NCBI RefSeq assembly: GCF_004765815.2
Contig: NZ_ML974127.1
Location: 1,156,927 to 1,220,926, forward strand
Direction: 5' to 3'
Length of the DNA: 64,000 nt
DNA from: Halorussus salinus
GTDB lineage: Archaea > Halobacteriota > Halobacteria > Halobacteriales > Haladaptataceae
Shown here in pieces: positions 42,414-56,102 of this stretch. The number at the start of each line of letters is the position of its first letter. Within the stretch, counting starts at the first letter, position 1. The notes beneath the pieces are model-generated. The model saw only the letters and a list, made by a program, of their open reading frames with translations, was not told the DNA's origin and made no database searches. The position numbers and the translations under genes were made by a program.

Positions 42414-47038
<4,625 letters not shown>

Positions 47039-47363: not shown

Positions 47364-48299
47364 ATGGTTCATGGACACGGAGAGCGGAAAATTTCTGACG
47401 AACAGCGCCGGGAGTTCCTCAAGGCACTGGGTGCCGGTGGAGCGGTCGCGGCCGGAGGAGCGACGCTCGGCGACGTGCGGGACGCGGTCGAGACCGGCGG
47501 GGGAACCGAACTCGCGTCCGTCGGCGAGGCGATTCGGAGCGACGTGGCGGGGTCGCTCGACGCCGACCTGCTGGCGGCGGGTCGGGCCGACCTCGCCGGG
47601 GCGGCGGCCGACCTGACCGCGGTTCCCGACCGGGGTCTCCCCGGCGCGAACGAGGGGCCGCGCGAGGAGTTCGCCGCAGTCGCCGCGGCGGCCCGACCGA
47701 CGTACGACCACCTCGGCGAGGTCGGCTTCTTCGAGAGTACGACCGAGCGACTGCCGGAGTTCTCGCCCGAGTACATCGAAGACAGCGTGCGCCGGTTCGT
47801 CGTCAGCGACGGACTGGCTGGCACGCTCTCGGACCACAGCTTCTCCGAGCAGGAACTCGTGGACCTGTTGGCGACCGTCGTCGGCCACCGCGAGCGAATC
47901 GGCGAGCGCCACTGGGTCGCCACCGACCAACTGCCCCGCGAGCAGATGGAGATGGGCGAACACGTCCCCGCGATGACGAAGGCCGCCGCGGGCGGCGTCC
48001 TCCTCTGGTTGGAGGACTTGGACGACCACCTCTGGCGCAACGGCGTCATCCTGACCGACGAGATTCTGGCCGACGCGGCGTGGGACGCCCGCGCGATGGC
48101 GGCCGGGTTCGACCTGATGGCCGACGGTGCGCGCCGAATCGCCGAGGAGGACGGGACCGGCGACGACGAACTCGCTGGTCTGCTGTCGTCCGGATTCGCC
48201 CTACAGGCCATCGCCCAGAACCTCCTGCCGCGGGACGCCTACTGGGTGACCGAGGAGATGCGCGCCGAGCGAACGAACGACATCGAGGTTCCCAACTGA
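47364..48299 (+). CDS. Tat-signal exported helical protein, partner of the quinoprotein
   Basis: 311 residues from ATG 47364. A twin-arginine signal is visible as EQRREFLKALGAGGAVAAGG (about residues 14-33). The rest is soluble, helical and acidic with Ala-rich stretches and no recognised catalytic motif. It is followed after one base by a large cupredoxin-quinoprotein that has no signal peptide of its own, so this protein may carry its partner through the Tat pathway as a folded complex. Family not recognised. Confidence 0.78.
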   Translation: MVHGHGERKISDEQRREFLKALGAGGAVAAGGATLGDVRDAVETGGGTELASVGEAIRSDVAGSLDADLLAAGRADLAGAAADLTAVPDRGLPGANEGPREEFAAVAAAARPTYDHLGEVGFFESTTERLPEFSPEYIEDSVRRFVVSDGLAGTLSDHSFSEQELVDLLATVVGHRERIGERHWVATDQLPREQMEMGEHVPAMTKAAAGGVLLWLEDLDDHLWRNGVILTDEILADAAWDARAMAAGFDLMADGARRIAEEDGTGDDELAGLLSSGFALQAIAQNLLPRDAYWVTEEMRAERTNDIEVPN

Positions 48300-48300
48300 C

Positions 48301-50406
48301 ATGCCCGCCGATATCGACCCCACGACCGAGGAGATCGAACCGGAGGAACGACCCCACTACATCGACACCGGGCCGGAGGCCCGCGGCGAGGACCAACTCG
48401 TCCACTTCAACCGTCCGGGCTTCACCACCGAGTTCAGACTCGGCGGCGCGACCGCCGCGTGGCAGGGCCGCGCGCCCTCCCGAATCGAGGGGCAATCGAA
48501 TCCGACGCTGAACTTGGAAGCCGGGAACACGTACCGAGTCGTCTGGGAGAACGTCGACGGCGCGCCCCACAACTTCGTGATTCAGGACGCCGACGGGAAC
48601 CGCGTCGTCGGAACCGAGGTGTACTCCTCGCAGGGCGAGATGGTCACGCTGTCGTTTCAGGCCACCGAGGAGATGGACCGGTACATCTGCACCGTCCACC
48701 CCAACACGATGGTCGGCGACGTAGAAATCGCGGGCGAGGGTCCCAGCCCCGGCGGCCAGCAGACCGAGCAACTCCAAGAACCGCCGGGACCGGGCGCGAC
48801 CCAAGAGCCGGTCCCCGAGATGAACGTGACGACCGGAATGTTAGAGGAGGACGACGAGCGCCGCGACTCGTGGCTCACCTACGACAAGGGACTGGGCCAG
48901 CGCGGCTACACGCCCGCCGACCAACTCGACGCCGACAACGTCGCCAGCCTCGAACAGAAGTACACCATCCCGACCGACAGCGCGGGCATCGAGACGAACC
49001 CCGTCGTCGTCCCGTCGGACCCGCCGGTGATGTACTACACGACCAGCAACCTCGCCGTCGTCGCGGCCAACGCCCGCACCGGCGAGAAGTACTGGCAGTT
49101 CAAGTACGCGCTCCCGGAGGACGCCGCGGGCCAGACCGGTCGCAACCGCGGCGTCGCCGTCTGGCAGGACAAGGTGTACTTCGCGACGACCGACTCGTAT
49201 CTGGTCGCGCTCGACCGGTACACCGGCGAGAAGGAGTGGGAGACGCTGATGCTCACCGACGAGCAACAGCGCGAGATGGACCAGCCGAAACGGATGTCCA
49301 TTAGCCAAGCGCCCATCGCCTACGACGGGCGGATTCTCGTCGGCATGAGCGGCGACTTCGGGGGCTGGTGTGTCGCCTCGTCGGTCGATGCGGAGTCGGG
49401 CGACGTTCGGTGGCAGGTCAACATGGCTCCGAAGGACGCGTGGATAGGGGATAGCTGGCGGTTCGCCAGCAACGCGCCGTGGATGAGTCCCTCCATCGAC
49501 CCGGAGACGAACAACGTCTTCTACGCGGTGGGCAACCCCTGCCCGATGATGAACGGCATCGTCCGGCCGGGACCGAACAAGCACTCGAACTCCATCGTCG
49601 CCATCGACCTCGACTCCGGCGACGTGGAGTGGGCCAGCCAGCAGATTCCCCACGAGCTGTGGGACTACGACAGCCACGCCACTCCGACGGTTTTCGACCT
49701 CGAAGTGGACGGCGAGACCCACCGTGCCGTCTCGACCGACCAGAAGGCCGGGTGGACCTACGTCTACGACGCCGAGACCGGGCGGCTCCTCGAACGCACC
49801 GCGCCGTGGACCGAGCAGGACCACGAGTGGGCCGACCACTTCCTCGCGCTCCCGCCCCGCGGCGAGGAGAACGCCGGGACCTGCTGGCCGGGCACCATCG
49901 GCGCGACCGAGTGGCCGCCGTGCGCCTACGACCCCGACACCGGGCTACGCTACGTCGCGGCGGTGGACGCGGCCCAGCGCGTCTCCTACGACCCCGACTG
50001 GGAGTACGAGACGCAGGGCGACATCACGCTCGCGGAGGGCGGGTCGCGACTCGCCTCGGAGGACACCTCCCACTCCGCGTTCGTGCAGGCGGTGGACCCC
50101 GCGACCGGCGACCTCGCGTGGCGGACCGAACTCCCGGACGTGAACCCCGAGTGGTCCCACTGGCGCATCTGGCCCGGCGGGACGACCGCGACCGGGGGCG
50201 GCGTCCTGTTCGTCCCCTCGTCGGGCGGGCACGTCTACGCGCTCGACACCGAGACCGGCGAGCGCATCTGGAGCGCCGAGACCGACGCCGACCGCATCAC
50301 CCCCTCGCCGGTGGTTTGGGACGACCCGACCGAGGGCACCCAGTACGTCGCGGTGGCGGCCGACGACGAGATAACGGTCTGGACCTCCGGCGGCTTCGAG
50401 GGCTGA
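48301..50406 (+). CDS. cupredoxin-quinoprotein (PQQ-type beta-propeller) fusion without signal peptide
   Basis: 701 residues. The N-terminal half has a cupredoxin domain (about residues 65-145) with copper ligands His in GAPHNFVIQD and Cys, His and Met in YICTVHPNTMVG. From about residue 180 comes an eight-bladed-type propeller with the repeated PQQ-like motifs NARTGEKYWQFK, DRYTGEKEWETL, DAESGDVRWQVN, DLDSGDVEWASQ and DTETGERIWSAE. In bacterial quinoprotein dehydrogenases a cytochrome or similar takes the electrons; here a copper domain seems to do so. No N-terminal signal is visible. The stop of the Tat-signal protein is one base before its start, indicating a coupled pair. Confidence 0.88.
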   Translation: MPADIDPTTEEIEPEERPHYIDTGPEARGEDQLVHFNRPGFTTEFRLGGATAAWQGRAPSRIEGQSNPTLNLEAGNTYRVVWENVDGAPHNFVIQDADGNRVVGTEVYSSQGEMVTLSFQATEEMDRYICTVHPNTMVGDVEIAGEGPSPGGQQTEQLQEPPGPGATQEPVPEMNVTTGMLEEDDERRDSWLTYDKGLGQRGYTPADQLDADNVASLEQKYTIPTDSAGIETNPVVVPSDPPVMYYTTSNLAVVAANARTGEKYWQFKYALPEDAAGQTGRNRGVAVWQDKVYFATTDSYLVALDRYTGEKEWETLMLTDEQQREMDQPKRMSISQAPIAYDGRILVGMSGDFGGWCVASSVDAESGDVRWQVNMAPKDAWIGDSWRFASNAPWMSPSIDPETNNVFYAVGNPCPMMNGIVRPGPNKHSNSIVAIDLDSGDVEWASQQIPHELWDYDSHATPTVFDLEVDGETHRAVSTDQKAGWTYVYDAETGRLLERTAPWTEQDHEWADHFLALPPRGEENAGTCWPGTIGATEWPPCAYDPDTGLRYVAAVDAAQRVSYDPDWEYETQGDITLAEGGSRLASEDTSHSAFVQAVDPATGDLAWRTELPDVNPEWSHWRIWPGGTTATGGGVLFVPSSGGHVYALDTETGERIWSAETDADRITPSPVVWDDPTEGTQYVAVAADDEITVWTSGGFEG

Positions 50407-50807: not shown

Positions 50808-51878
50808 ATGAACGACACGACGACACTGATAGCACTGCTGACGGCGCTGCTCCTCGTCGCGGGCGGCGTCGGACTCGGCGCGACCGGTTCGCCGACGGCC
50901 GGGACCGCCGATTCTGTCAGACAGGAAACGACGACGAATCAGACCACGATGGACGAGGCGACGACGATGGACGAGGAGACGACGATGCAGGAGACGACAC
51001 GGACCGCCGCTGGCACGAACGAGACCACCACGGTTCCCGCGGAGGCCCGGAGCGGGGCCACCGACGACGAGACGACCGCCGCTACCGGTGGCGAGACGAC
51101 CGCCGCCGACAACGAGACGACTACCGCCGGAAACGCGACGCAGACGACGGCGCAGGCTGGCGGGCAACCGGGAGCGACGAACGTGACCGCCCGGAACGTC
51201 ACGATAGACCGGCTCGTCCTCCGGAACGTGACCCTCCTCGACGCCAGCGTCGGGGACCTGACCGTGGAGAGCGAGTCGGCCGAGAACGTCACGAACCAGA
51301 CATACAGCGACGTGTCGGTCCAGCGCATCGAGGCCGCGGGCAACGTGACCGACCTGACGCTCACGAACGTCAGCATCAACGACGAGGAGTTGGCGACCGC
51401 GCTGGTCGGCGAGTCGGGCCGTCTGCGAATCGAGACGCGAACCGTCATGGGTGAGGCCGTCTTGCAGAACCAGACCGTCGAGGGACTCGAAGTCGGGAGC
51501 GCGACGGTCCGCGCGGGCGCGGCCGAGAACGTCTCGGTGAACGCCGACGCCGCGACCGCGAACCAGTCCGAGAGCGGAACCCAGACCGAGGGCCAGCCCG
51601 CAATCTCGGCCGAGAGCGCGGTCGTCGGGGGCGCGGACCTCGCGAGCCTGAACGTCTCGGGCGTCTCGACGGGCGAGACCGCCGGAGCGACCGAGACGAC
51701 CGCTCAAGCGACTCAGACGACCGTGCAGGCGACGGAGACGACCACGCAATCGACTCAGACCACCGCGCAGGCCACTCAGACCACCGCGGAGGGCAACGAG
51801 ACCACCACGGTTCCCGCGGAGGCCCGGAGCGGAGCCACCGACGACGAGACGACCACGACCGAGAGCGGCGGGGCCTGA
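50808..51878 (+). CDS. secreted Thr/Asn-rich low-complexity surface protein
   Basis: 356 residues. A Sec-type signal (LIALLTALLLVAGGVGLGAT) precedes two long low-complexity Thr/Glu/Ala-rich segments (about 38-125 and 285-356) that flank a beta-rich middle (about 126-280) with many N-glycosylation sequons (NVT, NQT, NAT). The low-complexity arms contain near-identical copies of the same 20-residue segment (NETTTVPAEARSGATDDETT). No anchor is seen at the C-terminus. Probably a heavily glycosylated, mucin-like surface or secreted protein; role unknown. Confidence 0.8.
   Translation: MNDTTTLIALLTALLLVAGGVGLGATGSPTAGTADSVRQETTTNQTTMDEATTMDEETTMQETTRTAAGTNETTTVPAEARSGATDDETTAATGGETTAADNETTTAGNATQTTAQAGGQPGATNVTARNVTIDRLVLRNVTLLDASVGDLTVESESAENVTNQTYSDVSVQRIEAAGNVTDLTLTNVSINDEELATALVGESGRLRIETRTVMGEAVLQNQTVEGLEVGSATVRAGAAENVSVNADAATANQSESGTQTEGQPAISAESAVVGGADLASLNVSGVSTGETAGATETTAQATQTTVQATETTTQSTQTTAQATQTTAEGNETTTVPAEARSGATDDETTTTESGGA
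51018..51077 (+). repeat. 60-bp direct repeat, copy 1 (other copy 51795-51854)
   Basis: Identical to 51795-51854 except for one base (GGGGCC versus GGAGCC). Both copies are in frame in the Thr-rich protein, 777 bases apart, in the two low-complexity arms. Near-perfect DNA identity indicates recent duplication or gene conversion. Confidence 0.85.
51795..51854 (+). repeat. 60-bp direct repeat, copy 2
   Basis: Second copy of the direct repeat at 51018-51077, near the end of the Thr-rich protein gene. Confidence 0.85.
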
Positions 51879-51936: not shown

Positions 51937-53094
51937 GTGACGGAAACGATGGGGGAGACACGACGGGAATTTCTTCGAACGACAGGCGTCTCGGCGGTCG
52001 GACTGACGGGAGCGGTCGGCGTCACCTCCGGCCAGTTGAGCGGCGTCTCGCTCCTGCTCAACTGGAAGCCAAACGGGCTTCACGTGCCCTACTACGCCGC
52101 GAAGGCGCGGGGCTACTACGACGAGCAGGGGGTGAACCTGACCGGAATCGAGTCCGGACAGGGGTCGGACTTCGCGGCCAAGCAGGTCGGACTGGGTAAC
52201 GCTCCGCTGGCGGTCACCGGCGCGAGCCAGATACTCAACGTCAACTCGCGGGGCCTCGCGCCCCGGTCGGTCGGCGTGATGATGCAACGCAGTCCGGTCG
52301 TGGTGTTCACCACCCGCGAGACCTTCGGCGGCGAGTTGACCAGCGCCGACCAACTCGCGGGCAAGACGGTCGGTACCGGCCCCGGCATGGTGCGGATTCT
52401 CACGAAACTGCTCCTCGAACAGCGGGGCGTCCTCTCGGAGGTCGAACTCGTGGACACCGGATTCGACACGGTCCAGCAGTTGCTCGGCGGGGAGATAGAC
52501 GCCGCGGGCGGCGTCTTCGCCGACGCGGTGGTCGCCCGCCGGAAAGCCGAGCAGGTCTCGTCGGTTTCGGTCGCGGAGACGATTCCCTCCTACGGGCACG
52601 TCGTCGCCGCGAACGACGAGTTCGCGGCCGAGAATCCCGAGACGGTCCGCGGGTTCCTCAACGCGACCGCTCGGGGCGCGGCGTGGGCGACCGACAATCC
52701 TCAGAAAGCGACCGACGAGCTACTCGCGGCCAACCCCGCTCTCTCGGAGACCGCCGAGGTCCAGCGCGCCAAGTGGGTCGAGATGGCCAGCCAGTACGTC
52801 CTCTCGGAGTCGGTTCGCCAGCAGGCGTTCGGGTGGAGCGACGGGAAGCCGTGGCAAACGACCTACGAGGCGCTCCGCGGGGCGGAACTCCTCGGGGGCG
52901 AGGTGGACCCCGCGTCGGTCTGGACCAACGAGTACCTCGACACCGACTACCGGTACGTCGGGGAGTACGCCGCGCAGGTCACGCCGCCCGAATCGTCTCG
53001 GACGGCGACCTCCGGAAGCGAATCGACCGCGACTTCCGGAAACGACCCGACCACGACTTCCGGGAACGAACCGACCACGACCGGTAGCGACTGA
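51937..53094 (+). CDS. ABC transporter substrate-binding protein, NMT1/SsuA-ThiY-like
   Basis: 385 residues from GTG 51937 (or 381 from ATG 51949). A Tat signal is visible in TRREFLRTTGVSAVGLTGAV. The mature protein fits the NMT1/THI5-like periplasmic-binding family, with LLLNWKPNGLHVPYYAAKAR at the start of domain 1 and YYDEQGVNLTGIESGQGSD. These proteins bind aromatic or small organic solutes such as thiamine pyrimidine precursor, alkanesulfonates or nitrate; the exact ligand is unknown. The last ~25 residues are Ser/Thr/Asn/Gly repeats (TSGNDPTT, TSGNEPTT), a spacer-like tail. It is coupled to the permease gene by a one-base overlap. Confidence 0.88.
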   Translation: MTETMGETRREFLRTTGVSAVGLTGAVGVTSGQLSGVSLLLNWKPNGLHVPYYAAKARGYYDEQGVNLTGIESGQGSDFAAKQVGLGNAPLAVTGASQILNVNSRGLAPRSVGVMMQRSPVVVFTTRETFGGELTSADQLAGKTVGTGPGMVRILTKLLLEQRGVLSEVELVDTGFDTVQQLLGGEIDAAGGVFADAVVARRKAEQVSSVSVAETIPSYGHVVAANDEFAAENPETVRGFLNATARGAAWATDNPQKATDELLAANPALSETAEVQRAKWVEMASQYVLSESVRQQAFGWSDGKPWQTTYEALRGAELLGGEVDPASVWTNEYLDTDYRYVGEYAAQVTPPESSRTATSGSESTATSGNDPTTTSGNEPTTTGSD

Positions 53095-53858
53095 TGACCG
53101 CTTCCGGGTCGCGCGCGTCCGCAGTCGGCGCGCGCGCCGGGCCGCCGCTGGTCGTCGCCCTCCTCGGACTGGTCGCGTGGTGGGCCGCCGCCCGGACCGC
53201 CGCAGTGCCGGACGTTATCTTCCCGACGCCGTTCGACGTGGGCGCGGCGCTCGCGGCCCACTGGCCCGCGCTCGTCGGCGCGGCGGGCGTCACGGCCGCC
53301 ACGGCGGGCCTCGGAATCGTCGGGGGCGCGCTCGTCGGCGTCCTGTTGGCGATGGCGATGACCGCCTCCGAGACGACTCGCGCGGTCGTCCGGCCCTACG
53401 TCGTCGCGCTCCGGGTCGTCCCGGTCGTCGCGGTCGCGCCCCTCCTCTTCCGCTGGTTCGGCGACGGGGTTCCGGCGCGGGCGCTCCTCGCGGGGACGCT
53501 GGCGGTCTTCCCGGTGACGATAGCGACTCATCAAGGGTTGTCGGCGACGCCCGAGGAGTACCTCTCGCTAGCGCGGTCGGTCGGCGCGTCCCCGACCGCC
53601 CGGTTCGTCCGCGTCCGCCTCCCGGCGGCCGCGCCCGACGCGTTCGCAGGCCTGAAAATCGCGGCCGCCGCGGGGGTCGTCGGCGCGGTCGTCGCGGAGT
53701 TCCTGACGCTGAAGGCGGGCATCGGCTACCGGGTCTTCCGGGCCTCGACGCGACTCCAGACCGCCCGGATGGTCGCGGCGCTCCTCGTGCTGGCGGCGCT
53801 CGGTGTGACGTTCTACCTCCTGCCCGCGCTGGTCGAGCGCAGGGTCGATTGGGGGTGA
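53094..53858 (+). CDS. ABC transporter permease, SsuC/ThiX-like (1)
   Basis: 254 residues with about five to six membrane helices and the ABC-permease EAA loop near residues 160-178 (EYLSLARSVGASPTARF). It is paralogous to the permease encoded at 54449-55201. Its start overlaps the stop of the binding protein by one base. The matching ATPase is not in this operon but on the opposite strand at 55212, so this half-transporter must pair with that one or with a distant ATPase. Confidence 0.88.
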   Translation: MTASGSRASAVGARAGPPLVVALLGLVAWWAAARTAAVPDVIFPTPFDVGAALAAHWPALVGAAGVTAATAGLGIVGGALVGVLLAMAMTASETTRAVVRPYVVALRVVPVVAVAPLLFRWFGDGVPARALLAGTLAVFPVTIATHQGLSATPEEYLSLARSVGASPTARFVRVRLPAAAPDAFAGLKIAAAAGVVGAVVAEFLTLKAGIGYRVFRASTRLQTARMVAALLVLAALGVTFYLLPALVERRVDWG

Positions 53859-54448: not shown

Positions 54449-55201
54449 CTACCACGAGAGGCGACTCTCGGCCGCCGCGACCGCGCCGTAGACCGCCATC
54501 CCCTCCGCGAAGAGGACGACGACGGCCGCCAGCACCGCGTCGGTCTGGACGTTCTCCGCGCCGACGAGGACCAGATACCCCAACCCGGCGTCGGTCAGAA
54601 TCCACTCGGCGACGACCGCGCCGACGACCGCGAGCGCGGCCGACTGCTTCAGGCCCCCGAAGACGGCGGGAAGCGCGGCCGGGACCCGAACGCGGAGGAA
54701 CGTCTCGACCGGTCCCGCATCGACCGACCGGAGGAGGTCGAGGTACTCGTCGGGCGTCTCCCGGAGACCGGCGGTCGAACTCACGAACGTCGGGAAGAAC
54801 GAGACGAGCGCGACGAACGTCACCGCGGTCCCCGCGCCGGTGCCTAAATAGACGAGCAGGAGCGGCGCGACCGCGATTTTCGGGAGGACGCGCAACGTGA
54901 CGAGGTAGGGCGCGAGCGCCCGCCGGAGGAGCGTCGAGTGGACGACGACCCCGGCCGCGAGAAAGCCCCCGAGGACGCCGACCGCACCCCCGGCGAGGAC
55001 GGTTTCGAGCGTGACACCGGCGTTCCGGAGATAGAGGCCCGGCCGCGCGAGCAGTCGGTCGCCGACCGCGACGGGCGAGGGGAGGAGATACGGCGGCGCG
55101 TCCAGCAGGGCGACGACGCCCCACCACGCGAGGAGGCCGACGGCCAGCGCACCGGCGGGGAGCGAGACCTGCGCGGCAGGAACGCGGTCGGCGTAGCTCA
55201 T
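54449..55201 (-). CDS. ABC transporter permease, SsuC/ThiX-like (2)
   Basis: 250 residues, about six membrane helices. The EAA loop is near residues 154-170 (DEYLDLLRSVDAGPVET). It aligns with the plus-strand permease at 53094 in the core (PYLVTLRVLPKIAVAPLL compared with PYVVALRVVPVVAVAPLL there) but differs elsewhere, so the two are paralogues. It follows the ATPase gene by ten bases on the same strand. Confidence 0.88.
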   Translation of the reverse strand: MSYADRVPAAQVSLPAGALAVGLLAWWGVVALLDAPPYLLPSPVAVGDRLLARPGLYLRNAGVTLETVLAGGAVGVLGGFLAAGVVVHSTLLRRALAPYLVTLRVLPKIAVAPLLLVYLGTGAGTAVTFVALVSFFPTFVSSTAGLRETPDEYLDLLRSVDAGPVETFLRVRVPAALPAVFGGLKQSAALAVVGAVVAEWILTDAGLGYLVLVGAENVQTDAVLAAVVVLFAEGMAVYGAVAAAESRLSW

Positions 55202-55211
55202 GCAGTGAGTG

Positions 55212-56102
55212 TCACCGGCGTTGGTCCCGCCGGAGTTCGTACCCCTCGTGGAGCGCGGTTCGGACGCGCGCGACCTGCTCCTGAAACGCGGTCGTGCCGT
55301 ACACCGATTCGTCGCGGGGCCGGGGCAGGTCCACGTCGAAGACGCCCGCTATCTCGCCGGGGGCGTCGCTCATCACGACGCACCTGTCGGCGAGGAAGAC
55401 CGCCTCGGGGACGCTGTGGGTCACGAACAGGACGGTCTTTCGCTGTTCGCGCCAGACGCGCCGGACCTCGACGCCCATCTCCTCGCGGGTGAGTTCGTCG
55501 AGTTCGCCGAACGGTTCGTCCATCAGGAGGACCGAGGCCCCGAGGTGGAGCGCCCGCGCGATGGCGACGCGCTGGCGCATCCCGCCGGAGAGTTCGGCGG
55601 GGCGAGCGTCGGCGAACCCCGCGAGACCGACCGTCTCCAGCAGGTCGCGCGCCCGGTCGCGGTCGGGCGACTTCCCGGCCAGTTTCCGGAGGAAGACGAC
55701 GTTTTCGAGCGCGGACTTCCACGGGAGCAGGGCGTGGCGCTGGAAGACGACTCCGAACTCGCCCGCCGCTCTGGCGCGGTCGGGCGACTCGCCGCCGACG
55801 CTGACGGTGCCAGCGGTCGGGGCTTGGAGGCCGCCGACCGCCCGGAGCATGGTCGTCTTCCCGCACCCCGAGGGACCGATGACCGTGACGAACTCGCCCT
55901 CCTCGACTCGGAGGTCCACGTCGGCGAGCGCGCGGACCTCCTCGAAATCGACGGTCACGCCGTCGAGTCGGATGGCGGTCTCGGGCGACTCGCCCGACTC
56001 GCTCGACTGGTCGGTCTCCCCCGACTCCTCGGTCTCGCCGTGCCGGTGGCTCTCGCGTCCCGATTCCGCCGTCGCTCGCGCGCCGGGTTCGTCTCCCCCC
56101 AT
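55212..56102 (-). CDS. ABC transporter ATP-binding protein, SsuB/TauB-like
   Basis: 296 residues. An acidic N-terminal extension (about 1-45) precedes the ATPase core: Walker A GPSGCGKTTM (about 76-85), signature LSGGMRQRVAIARAL (about 170-184) and Walker B SVLLMDEPFGELD (about 190-202), then H-loop VTHSVPEAV. The sequence places it with nitrate/sulfonate/taurine-type ATPases. It is the only ATPase near the two permeases and the binding protein, so it probably serves both. Confidence 0.9.
   Translation of the reverse strand: MGGDEPGARATAESGRESHRHGETEESGETDQSSESGESPETAIRLDGVTVDFEEVRALADVDLRVEEGEFVTVIGPSGCGKTTMLRAVGGLQAPTAGTVSVGGESPDRARAAGEFGVVFQRHALLPWKSALENVVFLRKLAGKSPDRDRARDLLETVGLAGFADARPAELSGGMRQRVAIARALHLGASVLLMDEPFGELDELTREEMGVEVRRVWREQRKTVLFVTHSVPEAVFLADRCVVMSDAPGEIAGVFDVDLPRPRDESVYGTTAFQEQVARVRTALHEGYELRRDQRR

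Follow-up and report, generated by a model that had tools for sequence, protein, structure and literature searches.

Bacterial PQQ alcohol dehydrogenases carry their own export signals and load their cofactor outside the cytoplasm. In the window (the whole 64,000-nucleotide stretch of Halorussus salinus DNA analysed here), a cupredoxin-quinoprotein without a signal peptide is encoded directly after a protein with a twin-arginine (Tat) signal, which raises the question of how such an enzyme would leave the cell and what its neighbour does for it.

A signal-less cupredoxin-quinoprotein and its neighbour

The features of the two genes are as follows.

47364..48299, + strand: partner protein with Tat signal, 311 aa, entirely helical, assigned to no named family (Pfam/NCBIfam, AlphaFold2, homologues)
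47397..47456, + strand: Tat signal region of the partner, residues 12-31, DEQRREFLKALGAGGAVAAG (TIGR01409; alignment of 103 partners)
48301..50406, + strand: signal-less cupredoxin-quinoprotein, 701 aa (Pfam, NCBIfam, structure-sequence search)
48403..48738, + strand: cupredoxin (halocyanin-like) domain, residues 35-146 (about), copper ligands H90, C130, H133 and M137 (PF00127)
48823..50385, + strand: PQQ-type beta-propeller, residues 175-695 (about) (PF01011, 6.4e-60; TIGR03075; PedH 6zcv)
49534..49536, + strand: N412, metal-ligand position (69/69 aligned)
49663..49671, + strand: D455-Y456-D457, holding the catalytic Asp and the second Asp seen in lanthanide enzymes (alignment of 69)
49744..49746, + strand: K482, PQQ-contact position (69/69 aligned)

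The partner gene runs from an ATG at 47364 to a stop at 48297-48299, and the quinoprotein gene from an ATG at 48301 to a stop at 50406, leaving one base between partner stop and quinoprotein ATG. This placement agrees with that in a preliminary description of the locus, and the copper domain and PQQ-type propeller that it saw in the 701-residue protein are matched in that order by PF00127 and PF01011. Its claim that the quinoprotein lacks a signal peptide also stands: an in-frame stop lies 17 codons before the ATG, with no ATG, GTG or TTG among those 17 codons, and the hidden upstream signal that would have refuted its proposal is not present in the sequence. The Tat signal on the partner was likewise recovered (QRREFLKALG; TIGR01409, 16.9 bits against a cut-off of 16.7), with PF10518 at 16.4 bits, under its cut-off of 22.7.

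The copper domain matches PF00127 with 22.4 bits (cut-off 21.2), has a complete type-1 His-Cys-His-Met ligand set and shares 53% identity with a Tat-signal halocyanin encoded elsewhere in this genome (G000:C1:1326558); other halocyanins resembling it also bear twin-arginine signals. The fusion of cupredoxin and quinoprotein can be found in five Halorussus-type genomes; other modules, both signal-bearing and signal-less, are followed by a cupredoxin encoded as a gene of its own. An electron carrier domain is likewise fused to the PQQ propeller in type II quinohemoprotein alcohol dehydrogenase (1kv9). The preliminary description had the copper domain replacing the bacterial cytochrome; this holds for the presence of a fused carrier but not for its position, as the copper domain is N-terminal whereas the haem c (cytochrome) domain of bacterial type II quinohemoproteins is C-terminal.

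The propeller matches PF01011 with 203.9 bits (cut-off 26.7; 6.4e-60), and its nearest solved structure by sequence is PedH (6zcv, 1.8e-52). With TIGR03075 the quinoprotein scored 285.3 bits, under the curated cut-off of 480.05, and we therefore file it as a relative, not a member, of the PQQ methanol/ethanol dehydrogenase model. The second-best NCBIfam match was acido-empty-quinoprotein group A (TIGR04528), with 251.4 bits against a cut-off of 650. The first five Foldseek matches to the joined model of a relative's pair were PedH (two entries), XoxF and SolV-type methanol dehydrogenase (two entries).

D455 and D457 are invariant among the 69 aligned sequences (DYD in 65, DWD in four), as are N412 and the PQQ-contact set of K482 and R283. 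The metal-ligand Glu position is Asp in the window clade (E in 59, D in eight and Y in two of the 69), and the vicinal Cys-Cys found in 44/69 is absent there. The lanthanide-dependent PQQ alcohol dehydrogenases PedH, ExaF and XoxF share the propeller fold and the Asp-X-Asp signature, but they bear their own N-terminal signal and are not known to have a partner of the haloarchaeal type, whereas the haloarchaeal enzyme has no signal, a fused copper domain and, in the window, Asp in place of Glu. Judged from its sequence, the quinoprotein is predicted to use PQQ and may use a lanthanide; with Asp-Tyr-Asp conserved, it becomes possible to test whether halophilic archaea employ lanthanides. The search for PQQ biosynthesis genes that the preliminary description proposed gave no match over cut-off for pqqB (own genome), pqqE (40 genomes) or pqqC (24 genomes); since the control genomes likewise gave none, this is weak evidence of absence, and PQQ is a putative cofactor.

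Pairing and distribution of the two families

We counted as relatives of the quinoprotein all matches above 100 bits, which gave 103 in 69 of 391 Halobacteria genomes. Partner homologues occur in 69/391 genomes, and a same-strand partner gene lies directly upstream of every one of the 103 quinoproteins, a pairing far beyond chance; at this threshold neither family occurs without the other in any of the 391 genomes. The quinoprotein starts between -10 and +26 nt from the partner stop in 100/103 cases, one of these 100 (L076) having been placed by hand. The distances among partners and among enzymes are correlated with r = 0.924, against a mean of 0.647 and a maximum of 0.816 in 500 within-genome partner swaps.

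A profile of the partner, run on 392 genomes of the phylum, matched in seven, every one of the window's order. A tblastn search of 72,556 plasmids returned seven records, all from haloarchaea, in six of which the partner is annotated as a hypothetical protein (the seventh carries no annotation), and a scan of genome contigs with patterns from one sequence found two close relatives. No published description of the pair was found in the literature on haloarchaeal PQQ, Tat, lanthanides and halocyanins, as covered by titles and abstract openings with subscription journals mostly outside, and a term search of PMC11996626 gave no mention of Halobacteria.

The Tat signal is the sole feature recognised in the partner by Pfam or NCBIfam. 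Its AlphaFold2 model (pLDDT 89.6) has 13 helices; the best Foldseek match among solved structures had an E of 0.29, and the best Z in a VIA search was 7.5, a value typical for helical bundles. These searches returned only generic bundles, and carrier structures were absent from the lists, which proves nothing. Across 69 partners, gluconate 2-dehydrogenase subunit 3 (PF13618) was not among the 19 Pfam families matched at E<=5, no other named carrier gained support, PF12318 (FAD-SLDH) was matched by a single partner at 0.09, which is not significant, and no cofactor domain was recognised.

Probable export of the pair and competing explanations

None of the 103 quinoproteins carries an N-terminal signal. 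An alternative in-frame start is absent in 89 of 101, and the remaining 12 give no twin-arginine extension. The motif RR.[FL]L[KQA] followed by a hydrophobic stretch can be found in 43/103 partners; the signal is missing from the other 60 and was apparently lost twice. A cupredoxin gene lies directly downstream in 26/60 signal-less modules, and 34/60 have no cupredoxin match within 0.83-0.9 kb downstream, which leaves a large clade without a visible export signal on either protein. Tat carriage therefore cannot be the partner family's only job, and with the signal on only 43/103 partners we take the partner to be obligate for the haloarchaeal quinoprotein family, as a subunit or an assembly factor. 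In the window lineage, co-export is likely its role. Both the copper domain and PGF-CTERM motifs that would anchor sister quinoproteins favour export in this clade; these stand above the Pfam cut-off at the C-termini of L079 and L080, in only two of seven sister enzymes tested. The earlier proposal that the partner may carry the enzyme through the Tat channel gains support from the pairing in 103/103, the signal-less quinoproteins, the copper domain, PGF-CTERM and known hitchhikers, but does not suffice as a full account of the partner, because 60/103 partners have no signal.

Known Tat hitchhikers provide a precedent for co-export of the pair (PMC6719666, PMC4273604). The catalytic subunit of the FAD glucose dehydrogenase BcGDH is exported with a small helical Tat-signal gamma-subunit, like the helical Tat-signal partner beside the catalytic subunit here; BcGDH is, however, a flavin GMC enzyme with a gamma-subunit of 168 aa and five helices (PMC6719666), and the haloarchaeal partner family has no Pfam match to PF13618. 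In HybO-HybC and PaoABC, one signal-bearing subunit takes signal-less subunits folded through Tat, but there the carrier is itself a redox subunit (with Fe-S clusters in HybO), whereas the haloarchaeal partner has no recognised cofactor domain (PMC4273604). Heterotrophic marine Thaumarchaeota have PQQ-type dehydrogenases that likewise lack the Cys pair; four variants among them show the DYD motif, and blue copper proteins were proposed as their possible acceptor (PMC7300363). Signal peptides occur in 15/21 of them, unlike the haloarchaeal enzymes, and the portion of that study available names neither a partner nor a fused copper domain (PMC7300363).

We consider it probable (roughly 0.6) that the pair forms one enzyme unit, with the partner as obligate subunit or assembly factor and, in the window lineage, folded co-export through the partner's Tat signal. 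The quinoprotein would fold in the cytoplasm, load its cofactor there (PQQ together with either Ca2+ or a lanthanide) and bind the helical partner. As the enzyme has no signal and its always-adjacent partner bears the pair's only one, both proteins are probably exported jointly in the folded state. Outside, the propeller would oxidise an alcohol or similar substrate and pass electrons to the type-1 copper domain fused to it and on to the membrane chain, the fused domain replacing the separate halocyanin found beside related enzymes. A model of a relative's pair (L106) joined as one chain from 48 rows reached a pTM of 0.62 and yielded no interface score, and we draw no claim from it. If this reading is right, a family-wide, strictly paired, signal-less haloarchaeal quinoprotein would add to the known Tat hitchhiker systems, with a carrier family for which the searches made gave neither a named Pfam family nor a solved fold, and cofactor loading would move inside the cell. 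Since part of the partner family has the signal and part has lost it, carrier and subunit functions are separable in what amounts to a natural experiment.

Other explanations account for parts of these data. The propeller could have lost PQQ and now serve as a surface scaffold, sensor or binding protein, as the empty searches for pqqC, pqqE and pqqB, the Glu to Asp change and missing Cys pair of the window clade and the 251-bit second-best match to the acido-empty group would allow; we judge this unlikely, because a scaffold needs none of the catalytic Asp, extra Asp, Asn, Lys and Arg kept in 69/69, the match falls short of the TIGR04528 cut-off of 650, and a copper electron carrier is fused to the propeller. 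A quinoprotein that is cytoplasmic in all lineages, with the partner as a cytoplasmic assembly factor whose RR motif is either vestigial or serves to export the partner in some other role, would fit the 60/103 modules without a signal on either protein and the ferredoxin and CDC48-type AAA genes near the signal-less clade. The complete ligands of the window clade's fused copper domain, the PGF-CTERM tails of sister enzymes and the cupredoxins adjoining signal-bearing and signal-less modules alike speak against it, and we regard it as distinctly improbable.

Very doubtful, finally, is a partner that acts as a membrane tether, anchoring the pair by an uncut N-terminal segment with export as a by-product. 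By eye there is no clear AXA cleavage site after the hydrophobic stretch, and the N-terminal helix is retained in signal-less partners, but hydrophobicity is weak over that short stretch (a hydropathy of 1.33 across 15 residues in the window) and some sister enzymes have a C-terminal anchor of their own.

The linked importer

The following ABC transport features lie downstream of the pair.

51937..53094, + strand: NMT1/THI5-like substrate-binding protein, twin-arginine at its N-terminus, part of the linked importer (PF09084, 1.3e-35; genomic linkage)
53094..53858, + strand: ABC permease of the linked importer (PF00528)
54449..55201, - strand: second ABC permease
55212..56102, - strand: ABC ATPase

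The nearest solved structure of the substrate-binding protein is ThiY (3ix1, 8e-19), and genomic linkage ties this ThiY-like importer strongly to the quinoprotein-partner module. We suggest, very tentatively, that PQQ could be imported rather than made, entering through this ABC transporter, being loaded in the cytoplasm with the help of a dedicated partner from a new family and leaving in the folded holo-enzyme via Tat on the partner's signal; in two other lineages the partner would have lost the signal, and in part of these a downstream Tat-cupredoxin would have become the carrier. A lanthanide-type quinoprotein would then be used in a way inverted with respect to bacteria.

As a lead only, a Na/Ca exchanger gene lies within 12 kb of at least 17 of 49 modules among the matches listed, against at most 3.5 expected.

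Gene order and signals in the window

47364-48299, + strand: Tat-signal partner, 311 aa, starting with MVHGHGERKISDEQRREFLKALGAGGAVAAGG, a twin-arginine signal
48301-50406, + strand: quinoprotein, 701 aa, PQQ propeller preceded by a cupredoxin domain

The preliminary description had placed a Tat-signal protein one base before a signal-less quinoprotein with a fused copper domain, and each of these features is borne out. The TGA of the partner is followed by a single base and then by the quinoprotein gene, the Tat signal scores 16.9 bits against the TIGR01409 cut-off of 16.7, and the 701-aa protein matches PF00127 above cut-off (cupredoxin domain) and PF01011 at 6.4e-60 (PQQ propeller). A hidden signal peptide 5′ of the window quinoprotein is excluded at the DNA level, because a stop closes its frame 17 codons upstream and none of the intervening codons could serve as a start. 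The window comes from a haloarchaeon of Halorussus type; Halorussus litoreus and H. ruber are the closest named relatives in which the partner was found, and the window genome comprises 4.75 Mb in 11 contigs.

Pairing and signals across Halobacteria

We searched each protein against 391 Halobacteria genomes at a threshold of 100 bits, which returned 106 partner and 103 propeller matches in an identical set of 69 genomes. The partner gene lies directly upstream, on the same strand, for 103/103 propeller genes, and a propeller gene adjoins each of the three surplus partner matches (L175-L177) on the fetched stretches. The enzyme starts -10 to +26 nt from the partner stop in 100 of the 103 modules (one start was placed by hand); the three exceptions are L103, with a gap of 79 nt, L154, at a contig end, and L174, with an unread base in the gene. 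Pairwise distances of partner and enzyme correlated at 0.924 (99 modules), compared with a mean of 0.647 and a maximum of 0.816 in 500 trials in which enzymes were swapped among the modules of one genome. Given this strict pairing, and a correlation that beats within-genome swaps, partner and enzyme travel and diverge as a unit. The module is an obligate haloarchaeal two-protein quinoprotein unit.

In none of the enzymes does a hydrophobic stretch come after a twin-arginine motif, and the highest 15-residue hydropathy within the first 60 residues is 0.77 in the enzymes versus at least 1.27 in signal-bearing partners. An alternative in-frame upstream start is absent in 89 of the 101 enzymes tested, and no twin-arginine extension is available upstream of the remaining 12. 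The motif RR.[FL]L[KQA] is present in 43/103 partners and absent in 60/103, with L157 (NRRQFQEALG) a borderline case among the latter; in most of these 60 the N-terminal segment can still be aligned and the motif is gone (e.g., QRQLARTLDV). On the enzyme tree (a quick build with SH-aLRT support, midpoint-rooted for drawing only), signal presence and absence require two changes, which are most simply two losses of the Tat signal.

Probable co-export and the site of the enzyme

In the window lineage, the most likely role of the partner is co-export: the enzyme would pass through Tat already folded, on the signal of the partner. Gamma-subunits are described as co-exporting FAD glucose dehydrogenase through Tat (PMC6719666), and HybO and PaoA as doing so for their own partners (PMC4273604). 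The partner would act in the same way. Here lies the main correction to the preliminary description: the window partner is among the 43/103 with a Tat signal, but 60/103 lack one, and carrying a signal cannot be all that the partner does. The AlphaFold2 model of the partner is all-helical and confident (pLDDT 89.6); fold searches gave no significant match for the model, and none of the 69 partner members had a convincing Pfam match besides the signal. Twelve partner columns are invariant, including G54, H116, W184, W215, D220 and R300.

Four lines of evidence point to an enzyme that works outside the cell in the window lineage. The copper domain fused to the enzyme has a full set of four ligands; a protein of the same genome that shares 53% identity with it bears a twin-arginine signal and, at its C-terminus, a hydrophobic segment. 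Two sister enzymes, L079 and L080, have PGF-CTERM motifs at their ends (24.3 and 19.3 bits versus a Pfam cut-off of 18.8), L083 and L084 score 11.8 bits, under that cut-off, and L081, L082 and L175 have none. A separate same-strand cupredoxin gene, mostly with a twin-arginine signal where the start is readable, occurs in the 0.83-0.9 kb fetched downstream of 8 signal-bearing and 26 signal-less modules; the cupredoxin is convergent in 1 further module and fused in 5. A GSDH-type quinoprotein beside a module (L183:8528-10672, - strand), of a different haloarchaeal type, has the same kind of copper domain fused at its N-terminus but, unlike the module enzyme, carries its own twin-arginine signal, so the absence of a signal is special to the module.

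Counting against an extracellular site, no cupredoxin was found in the fetched downstream stretch (0.83-0.9 kb) of 34/60 signal-less modules, and some signal-less modules lie near ferredoxin and CDC48-type ATPase genes; the signal-less clade that lacks a cupredoxin neighbour may be cytoplasmic. Varying sets of genes recur near signal-less modules (L189, L190, L193, L196, L197, L203), encoding 2Fe-2S ferredoxin, CDC48-type AAA ATPase, Amphi-Trp protein, ArsR-type regulator and Na/Ca exchangers.

Catalytic site and neighbouring genes

Residues R283, N412, D455, D457 and K482, whose roles we presume from bacterial methanol/ethanol dehydrogenases and alignment to solved structures, do not vary across 69 aligned enzymes, and residues 455-457 read DYD in 65 and DWD in 4. 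The second Asp is a hallmark of lanthanide-dependent enzymes. The same DYD motif is used for thaumarchaeal quinoproteins in PMC7300363. By sequence, PedH is the solved structure that the window enzyme matches best; when the model of a relative was compared by fold, the top five hits were all lanthanide enzymes. The window protein's candidate reading as a lanthanide-type PQQ enzyme is, however, weakened by an Asp at the metal-Glu position and by the absence of the Cys pair, and the protein falls below both named-family cut-offs, TIGR03075 and TIGR04528. Quinoproteins of one clade (L158-L173) are longer, and in the two fully read, L158 and L163, the propeller contains an acidic insert of low complexity.

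The window also encodes an NMT1/THI5-like importer, 1.7 kb downstream of its module. Across 24 genomes with 49 modules, a binding-protein gene of this type (matches over about 60 bits) is found within 12 kb of 25/49 modules, against 0.98 expected, and 22/24 genomes have at least one module so linked. In four of five Halorussus-type genomes (G000, that of the window, G374, G162 and G274), the sole strong gene of the binding-protein family lies within 3.2 kb of a module. Among solved structures, the window binding protein comes closest to ThiY (8e-19), whose ligand is a planar pyrimidine. The search for PQQ-synthesis genes elsewhere in the genome, proposed in the preliminary description, was run without a positive control and gave none over cut-off (pqqB in the window genome, pqqE in 40 genomes, pqqC in 24). 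Since no PQQ-synthesis gene exceeded cut-off, PQQ import by the linked importer is a fair guess; an equally plausible reading is uptake of a thiamine precursor that has no bearing on the enzyme.

Na/Ca exchanger genes are also frequent near modules. Between the window module and the importer, 50808-51878 (+ strand) encodes a 356-aa protein, kept in two relatives, that has a start of secretion type and low-complexity repeats rich in Thr and Glu. A second module of the same genome, outside the window (G000:C1:298680-301213; L099, L178), has no NMT1 importer nearby and pairs a Tat-signal partner with a 569-aa quinoprotein that has no cupredoxin but has the Cys pair and metal Glu. Within the window, gyrB (42414-46127, - strand) encodes 1237 aa with an intein-like insert that includes a helix-turn-helix-like stretch; syntenic gyrB ORFs in two close relatives (L182, L202), called with the same script, measure 637 and 671 aa.
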